A DNA stretch of 48,958 nucleotides. Source: a virus. Position 1 is the stretch's first letter. Each line of letters begins with the position of its first letter. The notes beneath the pieces were generated by a model. It ran no database searches. It was not told the origin of the DNA and worked only from the letters and a program-made list of their open reading frames with translations. Positions 778-21,371 of the stretch are shown in pieces. The stretch spans positions 1 through 48,958 of IMG/VR virus record IMGVR_UViG_3300042691_013699. One strand, 5' to 3'. The translations under genes were made by a program, and so were the position numbers.

Positions 778-809
778 TGGTATAACCATACCACAGGGGT
801 CTGACAATT
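778..809 (-). promoter_or_regulatory. repeated promoter element, copy 2 (minus)
   Basis: The minus strand reads AATTGTCAGACCCCT (809-795), then G, then TGG TATGGT as an extended -10 (793-785). The -10 is embedded in a perfect palindrome, TGGTAT-AACC-ATACCA (778-793), that could be an operator. It drives the leftward gene starting at 753. The 15-base box is identical to copy 1. Confidence 0.6.
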
Positions 810-853
810 TATGCCATTTAGGGGGTGTGTTTAGGTGAACATTAGATGAACAA

Positions 854-985: not shown

Positions 986-1010
986 AAATGTCAGACCCCT
1001 CTGCTAGTCT
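986..1010 (+). promoter_or_regulatory. repeated promoter element, copy 3 (plus)
   Basis: AAATGTCAGACCCCT (986-1000) is followed by TGC TAGTCT (1002-1010), an extended -10. Transcription would start near 1017, about 16 bases before the first micro-ORF. It is expected to drive the zinc-knuckle gene at 1102. Confidence 0.55.
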
Positions 1011-1030
1011 AAAGACATAAGAAAAGTTAA

Positions 1031-1076
1031 GAATGAGCCTAGCAAATAAGCCTAACGGATGAGCCTAGCAAATAAG
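1031..1076 (+). repeat. pair of 20-bp direct repeats, leader 1
   Basis: GAATGAGCCTAGCAAATAAG (1031-1050) and its near-copy at 1057-1076 (GG for GA at the start) lie 26 bp apart in the leader of the gene at 1102. Two further copies are at 1396-1445. Their position between DnaA-like boxes is iteron-like. Alternatively, they are repeated because they encode the peptide MSLANK. Confidence 0.8.
1033..1062 (+). CDS. micro-ORF A, MSLANKPNG (leader peptide candidate)
   Basis: A nine-codon frame: ATG AGC CTA GCA AAT AAG CCT AAC GGA TGA. It starts about 16 bases after the predicted start of transcription, and its stop overlaps the ATG of micro-ORF B (ATGA), as in coupled genes. The upstream Shine-Dalgarno is weak (AAGAAAAG). 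It may be a regulatory leader peptide, or only a by-product of a repeated DNA or RNA element. No direct evidence of translation. Confidence 0.3.
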   Translation: MSLANKPNG

Positions 1077-1082
1077 TCTTAG
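1059..1082 (+). CDS. micro-ORF B, MSLANKS (leader peptide candidate)
   Basis: A seven-codon frame ending TCT TAG. It is coupled to micro-ORF A by an ATGA overlap and lies 19 bases before the zinc-knuckle gene. Its peptide repeats the first six residues of micro-ORF A and both halves of micro-ORF C, all with the same codons except for one AAG/AAA change. Confidence 0.3.
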   Translation: MSLANKS

Positions 1083-1101
1083 CAATACGAAAGGATTCAT
1101 T

Positions 1102-1227
1102 ATGAATGAATTACTAATTGAAAACATCACCAATACAAAATGTATTGAGTGTGATGACAAATTAACATCGTGGGAAAATACCTACTGCATTATGTGTGAG
1201 CCTGACGATTATTCTACATACGAATAA
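1102..1227 (+). CDS. zinc-knuckle microprotein 1, 41 aa
   Basis: The 41-residue product has CIECDDKL near residue 14 and CIMCEPDD near residue 29, two CxxC knuckles with 12 residues between them. This is a minimal zinc ribbon. It is a clear paralogue of the gene at 1668-1808: both share the frame ENIT..KC..CDDKLT.WE..YCI.CE and an acidic C-terminus. An AAAGGA ribosome site lies 9 bases before the ATG. It is made from promoter copy 3 and its repeat-bearing leader. The function is unknown; very small zinc ribbons often bind nucleic acid or host polymerase subunits. Confidence 0.7.
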   Translation: MNELLIENITNTKCIECDDKLTSWENTYCIMCEPDDYSTYE

Positions 1228-1256
1228 AAGTCCAGGGCATTTTTGATCACACATAA

Positions 1257-1308
1257 CGACACGCCCGACAGCGTGGGCGCGGGCAGCTGTGGATAACCTG
1301 TGATTTAT
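1257..1308 (-). other. GC-rich repeats and DnaA-box-like sites (candidate origin, right part)
   Basis: CGACACGCCCGA (1257-1268) and GGGCGCGGGCA (1275-1285) repeat words found at 963-974 and 909-919. They are followed by TGTGGATAA (1288-1296), a perfect DnaA box on the minus strand, and a weaker TGTGATTTA (1299-1307). The 15-mer TGTGGATAACCTGTG is the exact reverse complement of bases 893-907. The two clusters therefore face each other across the gene at 1102. Confidence 0.5.
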
Positions 1309-1324
1309 TGTTCACCTACTGTTC

Positions 1325-1341
1325 ATCTCAAATAGTGAGAT
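1325..1341. promoter_or_regulatory. 17-bp palindrome ATCTCA-N5-TGAGAT, copy 1
   Basis: The perfect inverted repeat ATCTCA AATAG TGAGAT has arms identical to the palindrome at 1988-2004. It sits about 10 bases before the TTGTCAG box of promoter copy 4, a typical place for a dimeric regulator to bind. The regulator is not identified. Confidence 0.55.
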
Positions 1342-1350
1342 TCAGGTAGA

Positions 1351-1375
1351 AATTGTCAGTCAGGTATGCTAAGTT
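1351..1375 (+). promoter_or_regulatory. repeated promoter element, copy 4 (plus, degenerate)
   Basis: AATTGTCAG (1351-1359) matches the start of the shared box, the GACCCCT part has diverged, and TGC TAAGTT (1367-1375) gives the extended -10. Transcription is predicted near 1382, 16 bases before micro-ORF C, matching the geometry at copy 3. It drives the genes at 1474 and 1668. Confidence 0.5.
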
Positions 1376-1395
1376 AAGACTATAAGAAAGGTTGA

Positions 1396-1445
1396 GAGTG
1401 AGCCTAGCAAATAAGTCGGGAAACCGAATGAGCCTAGCAAATAAA
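1396..1445 (+). repeat. pair of 20-bp direct repeats, leader 2
   Basis: Copies at 1396-1415 and 1426-1445 share the core TGAGCCTAGCAAATAA with the leader-1 pair (1031-1076). Spacing here is 30 bp rather than 26. Four copies in two leaders suggest that a whole promoter, leader and small-gene block was duplicated. Confidence 0.8.
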
Positions 1446-1457
1446 TCTCAACACTAA
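1398..1457 (+). CDS. micro-ORF C, 19 aa with MSLANKS twice
   Basis: A GTG-started 19-codon frame contains MSLANKS, then GNR, then MSLANKSQH, so both DNA repeats are read in the same frame. An AAAGG sequence lies seven bases before the GTG. The in-frame joining of two units that are separate micro-ORFs in leader 1 is unusual. Translation is unproven, and a DNA- or RNA-level role for the repeat is equally possible. Confidence 0.3.
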   Translation: MSLANKSGNRMSLANKSQH

Positions 1458-2755: not shown

Positions 2756-3802
2756 ATGGCAAATGTAACAGTTGTTAGAACAGCTACTTCATCTCAAATA
2801 GGATCCCTGCTTACTCAGGCTTCTGCCTCAGTTACATATGCACCAATAGTTCCAACAACACAAACAGGTTTTAGAAATATAATTATTAATGGCGGCATGG
2901 ATATTTGGCAACGTGGCACATCTTCATCTACTAATGGTGCTTACAACTCAGCAGATAGATGGTGGTTGTACTCAGATGCTGGAACAACAACTTGGGCAAG
3001 AGAACCTACTGTAGTTCCAACTGGATTTCAATACGCTTTAAAAGCAACACAGGCATCTGCTACAGCATCAATGGTTATTTACCAAGTTATTGAAACTGCA
3101 AATGCAGTTCGTTTGGCTGGAAAAACTGTAACTCTATCCGTTTATATTGCATCTACTGCATCTGTAACTATAAATCCAGATGTGTCGTATACAACTTCCG
3201 TTGATACAGCAGTTGGCGGTAGTTGGACAAACATAACTGCTACTCCAGCGTCTTGGTCAGTCCCATCTGGTTCTACTTACGCAAGGTACACAGCAACACT
3301 TACAATACCTAGCACCGCAAAATCAATAAGAGTTGGCTTTGGTCCAGCGTCTATAACCTCTGGAACATCTTTTTATTTAACTGGTGTCCAACTTGAAGAA
3401 GGCTCAACGGCTACTCCATTTGAACAACGTCCTATTGGTACAGAATTATCTTTATGTCAAAGATACTATCAAAATATTGTAACTCCTAATGCAACAACAG
3501 ACTTTAATGGTTTAATGGTTAGAGAAAGTACCACTCAAGCTCAAGCTTCTGTATATCTTCCAGTAAGTATGAGAATTTCTCCAGCATTAGTTGGTTCTTA
3601 TTTAGGAAGATCTGTTTTTAGAGACACATCTTTTAATGTTGCAGCAGGAGCTAACTCTGCAATATCTGTTAGCTCGTCTGGACCTAGTATTAACTGGATA
3701 ACTCTTATAATAACTCATGCAGCAGTTGCTGGAACTTATATATATGCTGAATGGGATTTATTAAATACTACAACAAATCTTGGATTAAACTCAGAACTAT
3801 AA
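2756..3802 (+). CDS. phage tail fibre/receptor-binding protein, 348 aa
   Basis: The 348-residue product begins with a short trimer-like repeat (SQIGSLLTQASASVTYAPIVP). It continues with FRNIIINGGMDIWQRGT, a carbohydrate-binding-module-like beta domain (residues about 60-225), and the hallmark VQLEEGSTATPFEQRPIGTE before a C-terminal domain starting CQRYYQ. This layout is shared by many phage fibre or tail-spike-like proteins. It is a paralogue of the next gene (3831). The start follows a promoter so closely that a leaderless mRNA is expected. It probably contributes to host-surface glycan binding. Confidence 0.8.
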   Translation: MANVTVVRTATSSQIGSLLTQASASVTYAPIVPTTQTGFRNIIINGGMDIWQRGTSSSTNGAYNSADRWWLYSDAGTTTWAREPTVVPTGFQYALKATQASATASMVIYQVIETANAVRLAGKTVTLSVYIASTASVTINPDVSYTTSVDTAVGGSWTNITATPASWSVPSGSTYARYTATLTIPSTAKSIRVGFGPASITSGTSFYLTGVQLEEGSTATPFEQRPIGTELSLCQRYYQNIVTPNATTDFNGLMVRESTTQAQASVYLPVSMRISPALVGSYLGRSVFRDTSFNVAAGANSAISVSSSGPSINWITLIITHAAVAGTYIYAEWDLLNTTTNLGLNSEL

Positions 3803-3813
3803 TTAATCTTTAA

Positions 3814-3822
3814 TGATATAAT
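3814..3822 (+). promoter_or_regulatory. extended -10 promoter, leaderless type
   Basis: TGA TATAAT ends 8 bases before the ATG at 3831. No ribosome site is visible, the same arrangement as at 2739-2747. Confidence 0.6.
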
Positions 3823-3830
3823 TAGTTATT

Positions 3831-5000
3831 ATGGCTACAATATTTCCAGGATCCGCAAGTGTTGGTCAAATTTTTAATGGATATACCTTTGATGGTACTG
3901 TATGGAATATAAATGGAATTGATTTAACTGAAAATTACCTTGAAGAATCCTCAGCAAGTGCTATATATCTTAATAAAGTTTCTGCATCTTCTACATATTT
4001 AACACAGGTAAATGCTTCTTCAACATATGCTCCAATAGTTCCAGCAGTACAAACAGGTTTCCGCAATGCCATTATCAATGGTGATTTTGGTATTAACCAG
4101 CGTGGTTTTACAAGTTTAACAACTAATGGTGCTTACGGTTTTGATAGATGGCTGACGCACGCTTCAAGCGGTGGCACTTATTCTGCACAGACGTTTACGC
4201 CTGGTGCTGCACCTGTTTCGGGTTATGAAGGAAAAAACTTTTATCGCATTGTAACCACTGGACAAAGTGGAGCAGATGTTTACACATCCTTTGAACAACG
4301 TATTGAAGATGTAAGAACTTTTGCAGGTCAAACAGTAACCGTTTCATTTTGGGCAAAAGCCGCAAGCGGAACTCCTAAAGTATCAATAGAGTTTATTCAA
4401 AACTTCGGCACTGGTGGTAGTAGCACTGTTCTTACAAACGCATCAACAGTAACACTTTCTACGTCTTGGGCAAGGTACTCAGTTAGTGTTGCCATACCTT
4501 CCATTAGTGGTAAAACTATTGGAACCAGTTCTTATTTAAGTTCCCCTTTGTTCTGGGTATCAGCAGGTACAACTTTTGCGTCTAGGGCAAACTCTATTGG
4601 TATTCAGTCCAATACTTTTGATTTCTGGGGAGTTCAAGTAGAGGCAGGTTCAACTGCCACTCCATTTGAACAACGCCCTATTGGTATAGAACTAGAATTA
4701 TGTCAGCGTTATTACATAAATAGAAAATCAGACTTTGCCGTTATCAATGGTTTTACAACAGCAAATGCACAAAAATGGTTTTCTGTTTCTTTACCGACAA
4801 CTATGAGAGCAGCACCAAACTTTACACCGTTTGACGGTGCAGGGAATTCTGGTCGTTGTACTACCATTGACGGTGCTGGAACTGGAACAAACAATGTAAC
4901 ACCTAGTTATCAAACTTCCTATCCAACTTTAGTATCAGTTTTATTTACAGGAACAAATACTGGGTTAAGTTTTGGATACATAGCAGAGATTGAGTTGTAA
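3831..5000 (+). CDS. phage tail fibre/receptor-binding protein, 389 aa
   Basis: A paralogue of the 2756 gene. Its N-terminus differs and includes FDGTVWNINGIDL, found at the ends of fibre adaptor domains, then three short repeats ending SATYL, SSTYL and SSTYAPIVP. The RNAIINGDFGINQRG motif, a beta-sandwich region and VQVEAGSTATPFEQRPIGIE-CQRYY follow. The C-terminal about 90 residues have diverged from the sister protein, as expected for the receptor-contacting tip. It is separated from its sister by 28 bases holding a promoter, and its stop overlaps the next start. Confidence 0.8.
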   Translation: MATIFPGSASVGQIFNGYTFDGTVWNINGIDLTENYLEESSASAIYLNKVSASSTYLTQVNASSTYAPIVPAVQTGFRNAIINGDFGINQRGFTSLTTNGAYGFDRWLTHASSGGTYSAQTFTPGAAPVSGYEGKNFYRIVTTGQSGADVYTSFEQRIEDVRTFAGQTVTVSFWAKAASGTPKVSIEFIQNFGTGGSSTVLTNASTVTLSTSWARYSVSVAIPSISGKTIGTSSYLSSPLFWVSAGTTFASRANSIGIQSNTFDFWGVQVEAGSTATPFEQRPIGIELELCQRYYINRKSDFAVINGFTTANAQKWFSVSLPTTMRAAPNFTPFDGAGNSGRCTTIDGAGTGTNNVTPSYQTSYPTLVSVLFTGTNTGLSFGYIAEIEL

Positions 5001-19363: not shown

Positions 19364-19392
19364 TTGCTTCTCCTTGAATACTCGTGTAGAAT
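19364..19392 (+). promoter_or_regulatory. candidate nrdJ promoter
   Basis: TTGCTT (19364-19369), 17 bases and TAGAAT (19387-19392), with a predicted start near 19399 and AGAAGGA before the ATG at 19431. It overlaps the divergent minus promoter at 19405-19413. Confidence 0.4.
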
Positions 19393-19404
19393 ATAACTAT
19401 TCCC

Positions 19405-19413
19405 ATTTTATCA
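19405..19413 (-). promoter_or_regulatory. extended -10 promoter, minus strand
   Basis: Minus strand TGA TAAAAT, with a predicted start near 19398 and a 35-base leader to the ATG at 19363. Same TGn design as the plus-strand promoters. Confidence 0.5.
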
Positions 19414-19430
19414 GAAGGACGTGTTACACA

Positions 19431-21371
19431 ATGTCATTTATTGACTCCAACGGATCTATAACAGATCCATATCGCAATTTTATTCATATTTCAAGGTACG
19501 CTCGTTGGATTGAAAGCGAAAACCGTAGAGAAACGTGGGAGGAAACAGTTGACAGATATTGTAACTTTATGCGAGACCATCTTGTTCTTAATCATGGCTA
19601 TAGCCCAAATGCAAAAGTTTTTAATGAAGTTAGAGAAGCAATCTTACATCATCACATAATGCCATCTATGAGGGCACTGATGACCGCTGGACCTGCTTTA
19701 GAAAGAGACCACATTGCAGCCTACAATTGCTCGTTCATCGCTGTAGACAATCCTAGAGCCTTTGATGAGGCTATGTACATCCTTATGAACGGAACTGGAG
19801 TTGGTTTTAGTGTTGAACAAAAATATATTAATCAACTACCAATTATTTCAGAATCATTCTTTCAAACAGATACAACAATTGTTGTTGACGATTCAAAACT
19901 TGGATGGGCAAAAGCTTACAAAGAGTTGATTGCACTTCTTTGTCAAGGTCAAATTCCAAACTGGGATGTATCAAAGGTTCGTCCTGCTGGAGCAAGACTA
20001 AAAATATTTGGTGGAAGAGCATCTGGTCCAGCTCCTTTGGTAGATTTGTTTAATTTTACAATTGAAACATTTAAGGTTGCATCAGGAAGACGATTAAAGT
20101 CAATTGAGGCACACGACCTAATGTGTAAGATTGGAGAAGTTGTTGTTGTTGGAGGAGTTCGTAGAAGTGCTTTGATTTCACTTTCTAATCTAGACGATTT
20201 TGAAATGGCAAAAGCAAAGAGTGGTCAATGGTGGGAAGGCAATGGTCAAAGAGCATTGGCAAACAATTCTGCTGTATATAATTCAAAGCCAAATACTGCA
20301 CAGTTCCTTCGTGAGTGGAGAAACCTGTATGAATCAAAGTCTGGCGAACGTGGAATTTATAATATTGATTCTGTTCGTAAGCACATTGATAAGTTTGGTC
20401 GTAGAGACTCAAGTCTTGTTGGTGGTACAAATCCTTGTGGAGAGATTCTTCTTCGTCCAAATGAATTTTGTAATTTAACTGAGGTTGTAATTGATGCAAC
20501 TGATACAAAAGAAACTCTTCTTGAAAAAGTTAGACTTGCAACAATTCTTGGAACTTGGCAATCAACTTTAACTAATTTTAAATACATTAGAAAAACTTGG
20601 AAAGACAATTGTGAAGAAGAAAGACTTCTTGGTGTATCTTTGACAGGTATCTATGGAAATAAAATTACCGCTACAAATGGTAAGGCTTTAGAAACACTCC
20701 TTGATGAAATGAGAGATCTATCTGTTTCAGTAAATGACAAAGAGGCTAAGTCTTTAAATATTAACCCGTCAGTATCAATTACTTGTGTAAAGCCGTCAGG
20801 AACAGTCTCACAGCTTACAGGGGTATCTTCTGGCATCCATCCATGGTATTCAGAATACTACATAAGAAGTGTTAGAGCAGATAATAAAGATCCTTTAACA
20901 CAATTCTTAAAAGACTCTGGAATTCCATTTGAACCAGATGTTATGAAGCCAGAACTTACAACAGTATTTTATTTTCCAATTAAGGCTCCAAAGAATGCAG
21001 TTCTTACAAAAGATTTAACTGCAATTGATCATCTTGAAATGTGGAAAACATATAGAACTCATTGGACAGAACATAATCCAAGCGTTACCATTAATGTTGA
21101 AGAAGATGAATGGATGCGTGTTGGTGCTTGGGTATTTGATAATTTTGACTCAATTGGTGGAGTATCTTTTCTTCCATCTGTAGAGCACTCTTATAAACAA
21201 GCTCCATATCAAGAAATATCTAAAGAGGAATATGAATCTTGGGTAAAGAAAATGCCTGATTCCATTAGATGGGAAATGCTTTCACTATATGAAACAACAG
21301 ATGGAACAACTGGAAGTCAAGAGTTGTCTTGTGTTGCTGGAGCATGTGAAATTGTAGATATTACAAGGTAG
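19431..21371 (+). CDS. nrdJ: class II ribonucleoside-triphosphate reductase, B12-dependent
   Basis: The 646-residue enzyme resembles the monomeric adenosylcobalamin-dependent reductase of Lactobacillus leichmannii and makes deoxynucleotides. All key cysteines are visible: C100 in YNCSF, C336 in NPCGEIL (thiyl-radical site, with E338), C347 in FCNL (partner of C100 by family) and the C-terminal pair C634/C639 in SCVAGACE. LSVSVND and the KPSGTVSQLTGVSSGIH loop fit the barrel. AGAAGGA precedes the ATG; a longer frame from 19374 has no ribosome site. It is shorter than the 739-residue relative. It needs host cobalamin. Confidence 0.9.
   Translation: MSFIDSNGSITDPYRNFIHISRYARWIESENRRETWEETVDRYCNFMRDHLVLNHGYSPNAKVFNEVREAILHHHIMPSMRALMTAGPALERDHIAAYNCSFIAVDNPRAFDEAMYILMNGTGVGFSVEQKYINQLPIISESFFQTDTTIVVDDSKLGWAKAYKELIALLCQGQIPNWDVSKVRPAGARLKIFGGRASGPAPLVDLFNFTIETFKVASGRRLKSIEAHDLMCKIGEVVVVGGVRRSALISLSNLDDFEMAKAKSGQWWEGNGQRALANNSAVYNSKPNTAQFLREWRNLYESKSGERGIYNIDSVRKHIDKFGRRDSSLVGGTNPCGEILLRPNEFCNLTEVVIDATDTKETLLEKVRLATILGTWQSTLTNFKYIRKTWKDNCEEERLLGVSLTGIYGNKITATNGKALETLLDEMRDLSVSVNDKEAKSLNINPSVSITCVKPSGTVSQLTGVSSGIHPWYSEYYIRSVRADNKDPLTQFLKDSGIPFEPDVMKPELTTVFYFPIKAPKNAVLTKDLTAIDHLEMWKTYRTHWTEHNPSVTINVEEDEWMRVGAWVFDNFDSIGGVSFLPSVEHSYKQAPYQEISKEEYESWVKKMPDSIRWEMLSLYETTDGTTGSQELSCVAGACEIVDITR

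Follow-up and report, generated by a model that had tools for sequence, protein, structure and literature searches.

Repeats, Promoters, and Genes in the Two Leaders

The window, which is the whole 48,958-base stretch of viral DNA analyzed here, carries four exact + strand copies of the repeat TGAGCCTAGCAAATAA, starting at positions 1034, 1060, 1399, and 1429 and distributed over two leaders as an earlier sequence-only reading had described; no further copies were found across the 48,958-base record with up to three mismatches allowed. The promoters that this reading had placed ahead of both leaders are present as well. In leader 1 a TGTCAG box is combined with the extended -10 element TGCTAGTCT (989-1010, + strand; hexamer at 1005-1010), and in leader 2 a TTGTCAG box is combined with the extended -10 element TGCTAAGTT (1353-1375, + strand). 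Both were recognized from the sequence and by a promoter scan, and leaders related to leader 1 have the same promoter type. The first gene after leader 1 (1102-1227, + strand) codes for a 41-aa CxxC..CxxC protein. Leader 2 is followed by a gene for a 62-aa hydrophobic protein (1474-1662, + strand), and the second gene of this unit codes for a 46-aa CxxC..CxxC protein (1668-1808, + strand), a paralog of the former with 66% identity. The claim that the leaders precede paralogous zinc-knuckle genes is thus accurate for leader 1, where the CxxC..CxxC gene comes directly next, whereas in leader 2 the paralog takes the second place. The short reading frames across the repeats were also read correctly: two micro-ORFs in leader 1, MSLANKPNG (1033-1062) and MSLANKS (1059-1082), each ending in a stop codon, are joined by an ATGA overlap, and a single frame in leader 2 starts at GTG and encodes VSLANKSGNRMSLANKSQH followed by a stop (1398-1457).

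The same stretches are predicted to fold into two RNA hairpins, both on the + strand and both recognized by covariation across relatives (1026-1083 and 1391-1452). Their common plan has P1 as the outer stem, CUAG/CUAG as the central helix, and P2 as the apical stem, with two facing copies of an internal loop in between. P1 of hairpin 1 would be formed by GUUAAGA (1026-1032) and UCUUAGC (1077-1083), and its equivalent in hairpin 2 is GUUGAGA/UCUCAAC (1391-1397/1446-1452). In the outer internal-loop copy of hairpin 1, strand a with the sequence U-GAGC (1034-1038), which is near-invariant among 442 modules, faces CAAAUAA (1069-1075). The adjoining central helix (1039-1042/1065-1068) has compensatory variants at related loci, and the inner loop copy, assigned by module conservation, is formed by strand b, CAAAUAA (1043-1049), facing UGAGC (1060-1064). 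P2 is predicted as CC-UAAC-GG (1051-1058), with G1050 and A1059 as flanking bases. In hairpin 2, the UGAGC strands occupy 1399-1403 and 1429-1433, the central helix 1404-1407/1434-1437, and the CAAAUAA strands 1408-1414 and 1438-1444, and P2 (1416-1419/1424-1427) is capped by a GAAA loop (1420-1423). The hairpins score 77.4 and 83.9 bits, respectively, with model R1, of which each is itself a training sequence. Only one of 200 shuffled sequences was as stable as hairpin 2 (z = -2.6 to -2.7), and the folding energy of hairpin 1 taken alone is weak (z = 0.6 to 0.8). The case for structure therefore rests on covariation.

Covariation Across Relatives

The repeats are far beyond chance, as the arrangement of two repeats recurs in hundreds of viral loci and is absent from reversed controls; a structure-constrained scan found no element in the reversed sequences of the window, 12 large relatives, and two Streptomyces phages. 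A pattern scan of 2.9 million viral contigs for two repeat copies spaced 5-30 bases apart gave at least 120 matches, and in all pattern scans together the element occurred at no fewer than about 300 viral loci. In the aligned loci the two halves of a variable outer stem enclose the two repeats, between which lies a variable inner stem, often capped by GAAA or GCAA. With the four middle bases of the repeat left free, the combinations CUAC/GUAG, CUAU/AUAG, and CUCG/CGAG were obtained, and also GUAG/CUAC and AUAG/CUAU. With five free bases, CUUAG/CUAAG, CUAAG/CUUAG, CUAGG/CCUAG, CUGAG/CUCAG, CUCAG/CUGAG, and CUAAU/AUUAG were found among the matches listed. The central helix thus exists in at least 12 distinct, fully complementary combinations of 4 or 5 bp in about 300 hairpins. 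There are only three non-complementary entries, of which two (L131 and L134) mix the halves of neighboring hairpins and one (L149) comes from a repetitive stretch without relation to the element.

P1 and P2 covary too. In 35 distinct sequences, both partners have changed in 14 of the 16 pairs, and 88.8% of the cells are paired; the covariation score of 0.639 compares with 0.136 (sd 0.016) after shuffling and with at most 0.144 in controls with slid partners. Where one repeat has a substitution or a single-base insertion, the other has the complementary change, which indicates RNA pairing and not codon selection. This is the second of the two options that the sequence-only reading had offered, namely an RNA element that happens to be in frame. 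A covariance-model search gave one to three significant matches in each of the 30 records to which the first loci led. The view that the repeats form opposite sides of one RNA hairpin, whose internal loop hardly varies, is well supported by the pattern of sequence changes, and the element is almost certainly a structured RNA rather than a peptide-coding sequence.

The opposite option, a translated MSLANK leader peptide that controls the downstream gene, was examined in 192 distinct hairpins. In the window the repeats do sit in open frames with ATG or GTG, and the first repeat offers a start-like codon in 174 of the 192 hairpins. This codon is expected, however, because the module begins with R'-U-G, which reads AUG or GUG when R' is A or G. 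The offset between the repeats is not kept modulo 3 (2 in 101 hairpins, 1 in 50, and 0 in 41), and a Shine-Dalgarno-like site at the right distance is found in only 12 of the 192. The 5-bp variants encode MSLSK and a stop instead of MSLANK, and VSLANN, MSLPNK, and others occur elsewhere. Moreover, compensatory changes alter the encoded residues, and forms with a single module exist. Homologous leaders with frameshifted repeats, which had been named in advance as a sign that the peptide is not selected, were indeed found. A leader peptide or uORF attenuator was rejected on these grounds, since neither reading frame nor peptide nor ribosome site is conserved, and a controlling function of the peptide appears extremely improbable.

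The Internal-Loop Module

The module is an asymmetric internal loop, 5'-R'UGAGC-3'/5'-CAAAUAAR-3', in which R.R' usually is G.A or A.G, the former being found next to P2 of hairpin 1. In 185 exact two-module hairpins, R.R' beside P2 is A.G in 76 cases and G.A in 58 (together 134 of 185), a lone pyrimidine takes its place in 47, and the U of the module is a U in 363 of 370 places. Only 36 substitutions occur in the 442 modules with at most one mismatch, and 29 of these change CAAAUAA to CGAAUAA, a tolerated A-to-G exchange; all these counts lean toward conservation, because the loci were fetched with exact patterns. Apart from the layout with two facing copies, the module can occur singly, as in L066, where GAGC-CUC-GAAA-GAG-CAAAUAA lies within a longer stem, twice in tandem (L061), or as three nested copies (L022 and L125). 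Since it is found once, twice, or three times per hairpin, the single loop and not the pair is the unit. Ribosomal mimicry was also considered, and no close match to the module exists in the 16S and 23S rRNA of one E. coli rRNA operon.

Repeats with dyad symmetry could in principle act in DNA as an iteron, an operator, or an origin hairpin. Such a role seems highly improbable, as the stems covary without any conserved arm sequence, many P2 loops are of the GNRA type, the G.A or A.G mismatches are kept beside helices, and the element retains one orientation relative to the promoters that it follows.

Distribution, Lineage, and Host

The structure-constrained scan of twelve records of 96-118 kb detected one to three hairpins in each; one extra match (G005, position 59431) is chance-like. 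A homolog of the portal protein used as query was present in 22 of 25 environmental records tested with it, and also in the Streptomyces phages Muntaha and Comrade (Stanwilliamsviridae), with 49-50% identity. These two phages contain neither a module nor an element detectable by the structure-constrained scan. Judged by the portal protein sequences, the carriers tested belong to one lineage that is related to the Streptomyces Stanwilliamsviridae. The exact 4-bp form is absent from the genomes of 84,980 bacterial and archaeal species and from the isolated phages in the collection searched, and in the latter the 5-bp and single-module forms had only chance-like matches, of 18 exact bases or of 23 bases at 91%. 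The element of most records is separated from the portal gene by about 12-35 kb, can be on either strand, and lies toward the border of the structural block where a region of small genes adjoins. This structural block may start in the window at 2756-5000, where adjacent proteins of 348 and 389 aa look like tandem paralogs because two motifs, ...YAPIVP..QTGFRN and ...STATPFEQRPIG..., are common to both.

WhiB-, RecA-, and DnaB-like genes of the lineage make an actinobacterial host likely, and a freshwater host of low GC content would fit. A B12-dependent-type ribonucleotide reductase (window 19374-21371) belongs to a family common to all 12 large relatives. Its nearest matches in the genome collection, with 50-57% identity, are Patescibacteria metagenome bins, perhaps because phage contigs were binned with them; for host inference, the enzyme thus leads only to metagenome bins of uncertain meaning.

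Promoters, Placement, and Downstream Genes

Like those in the window, the related hairpins follow promoter-like sequences with an extended -10 element, and P1 mostly starts 10-45 nt past the hexamer. The ribosome site lies outside the hairpin, and most loci have a small gene that begins 20-80 nt past the hairpin; for 12 of 168 hairpins no callable gene was present within 400 nt, several of these being situated at contig ends. The downstream genes are very diverse small unknowns, and near-identical leaders precede unrelated genes. In arrays such as L103 and L040, every promoter comes with a separate hairpin and no gene belongs to the upstream hairpins, a layout that argues against direct control of the neighboring start codon. 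Divergent pairs of hairpins 1.1-2.2 kb apart exist in several genomes. According to a crude gene caller, the element is preceded by few co-directional genes (median 1), and the downstream gene runs have a median of 3, which equals the median for runs starting from any gene in the loci. Hence, what sets the element apart is its upstream side only. GP88 and DUF932 genes are part of some long runs that it leads, and tail-type proteins are part of others.

The diversity of these genes is relevant for a riboswitch with one or more aptamers, which could account for a nearly invariant loop with freely varying helices in one or more copies per leader. No alternative terminator or arm masking the ribosome site was seen by eye, though, the downstream genes have no evident function in common, and no Rfam riboswitch matches, so that this interpretation is quite improbable.

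Among the promoters of the lineage, one class combines a TGTCAG box with an extended -10 element, TGNTANNNT, about 10-11 bases further downstream (window 989-1010 and 1353-1375), which is not the standard sigma-70 layout, and a second class has TTGACTTTT at the normal -35 spacing. Many promoters contain a dyad with a short loop across about -12 to +3, whose arms differ and stay complementary (window 780-820, - strand, and 1005-1020; examples are TATGGT-TAT-ACCATA, GTCT-AA-AGAC, and TATACT-TGC-AGTATA). Dyad stems of at least 4 bp were found at 10 of 12 hairpin-bearing promoters vs. 19% of control TANNNT sites. Upstream of promoters, GACACGCC / GGCGTGTC boxes occur at 411, 962, and 1259 in the window and in L040, L103, and L131, and possibly represent a regulator site. 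Leaders with a CCTAG outer stem (L040, L120, L125, and L126) have a second small hairpin between the element and the ribosome site, for example GGTTAGCAAATCGCTAAC and GATAACACAAGGTTATC, with arms that differ in sequence and remain complementary.

With a strict promoter pattern, the hairpin was found after 0-2 of about 4-27 matching promoters per genome; the pattern misses some elements, because the structure scan finds 1-3 per genome. These proportions matter for a post-transcriptional function, in which a host or phage RNA-binding protein on the loops would protect, or mark, early messages at their 5' ends against decay, without affecting elongation. Such a 5' stability element would agree with the position near the transcript start, with one hairpin per promoter independent of the downstream gene, and with modules varying in number and orientation. 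However, few promoters per genome carry the hairpin although many early messages would profit, and no RNA-binding partner was found. We regard this explanation as conceivable and rather doubtful.

Proposed Function

We infer that the hairpin is transcribed as a 5' leader and that a protein docks on each copy of the loop. The loop hardly changes while helices, copy number, and orientation vary and the portal proteins of the carriers differ by up to half, which fits repeated docking of one conserved partner. Taken together, the comparative data suggest that the element probably serves early transcripts as a cis leader on which a protein docks, and a conserved host factor is a more likely partner than a phage protein. 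Once transcribed, the leader would bind either the RNA polymerase during elongation or one of the host's elongation factors, and in this state it may help the early transcript to pass pauses and terminators. The model is the protein-free put RNA of phage HK022, which binds the beta' zinc-binding domain of RNA polymerase and suppresses termination. A put-like effect of the leader is put forward tentatively, and the whole chain from a structured leader through put-like antitermination might apply with the same reservation. Intrinsic terminators are not clearly enriched in the gene runs led by the element (20 sense vs. 15 antisense in 173 kb), so they do not demonstrate that antitermination is needed. 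A terminator-like hairpin follows the second unit of the window at 1854-1877, only two genes in; its homologs in L015 and L046 have clearer T-rich tails.

If the partner were instead encoded by the phage, the hairpin could be an operator through which an RNA-binding regulator turns off the early operons or sets their timing. The nearly invariant loop would suit such a regulator, and the carriers, as one phage lineage, have many proteins in common, including small zinc-finger-like and HTH proteins. The seven families common to all 12 large genomes are, however, mostly structural or replication genes, and the one weak hint of RNA binding (MTRES1_C, E = 0.007) comes from the CxxC protein phrog_10853, which is present as well in Streptomyces relatives without the element. 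The operator model is also at odds with a hairpin that lies clear of the ribosome site and with the geneless upstream hairpins of the arrays. An operator thus appears unlikely, although the large number of genes common to the carriers keeps the shared-gene analysis from telling host and phage partners apart.

The modular design of the element is unusual in that one near-invariant loop is reused in varying number, orientation, and spacing while every surrounding helix drifts, which points to a conserved partner. Pull-down with a short RNA could then reveal how phages control expression in hosts that are hard to study. In addition, the hairpin family supplies a covariance model and a marker for the lineage.

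Comparison with Known RNA Elements

Cis-acting leader RNAs of phages are a known kind of element. The family described here and its modular loop are undescribed as far as could be tested, in agreement with the statement of the sequence-only reading that it knew of no described example. The window leaders and five loci holding several forms gave no Rfam match at the element up to E = 1, and the sequence was not found in the literature searched. The element thus represents an RNA of hundreds of environmental phage loci that is absent from Rfam. It resembles leader peptides and uORF attenuators in having short frames with start codons in the window leaders, and differs from them in that no frame is kept, ribosome sites are almost lacking, and no peptide is conserved.

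Among known internal loops, the UAA/GAN motif is a 3 by 3 loop closed by canonical pairs on both sides. Similar to this motif, UAA is placed opposite GA in the module, where it faces GAG, but the loop of the element is larger, with fixed AAA and C, and usually flanked by a G.A or A.G mismatch. In the K-turn consensus, tandem sheared G.A and A.G pairs come after a bulge of three bases. In the element the longer strand is CAAAUAA instead, and no tandem G.A/A.G step after a bulge is seen at the sequence level. As CAAAUAA is present in nearly all 442 modules, against the consensus, a K-turn was rejected at this level, leaving aside a K-turn with a non-standard three-dimensional structure. The likeness lies in a recurrent asymmetric internal loop with a GA step, K-turns serving elsewhere as modules that bind proteins (PMC4316175).

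By analogy, the closest known case in position and size is the HK022 put RNA. HK022 has two such RNAs of about 70 nt after its early promoters, putL just downstream of PL and putR about 270 nt past the start of PR, and put RNA binds the polymerase directly (PMC9378689). Like put, the element measures about 60-70 nt, is located after promoters whose early timing is inferred here, and has non-canonical pairs in its stem (PMC9378689), and the divergent pairs in several genomes resemble putL/putR. In contrast, put consists of two stem-loops and the element of one hairpin of about 60 nt with one to three loop copies; a second small hairpin stands beside it in some leaders only. The phage lineages differ as well. 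Should the analogy nevertheless extend to function, these phages would possess a new class of RNA that captures actinobacterial polymerase or elongation factors via a reusable module, present in one to three copies per leader, and without a phage protein. This would amount to a second, independent invention of put-like antitermination, an outcome that we consider unlikely.
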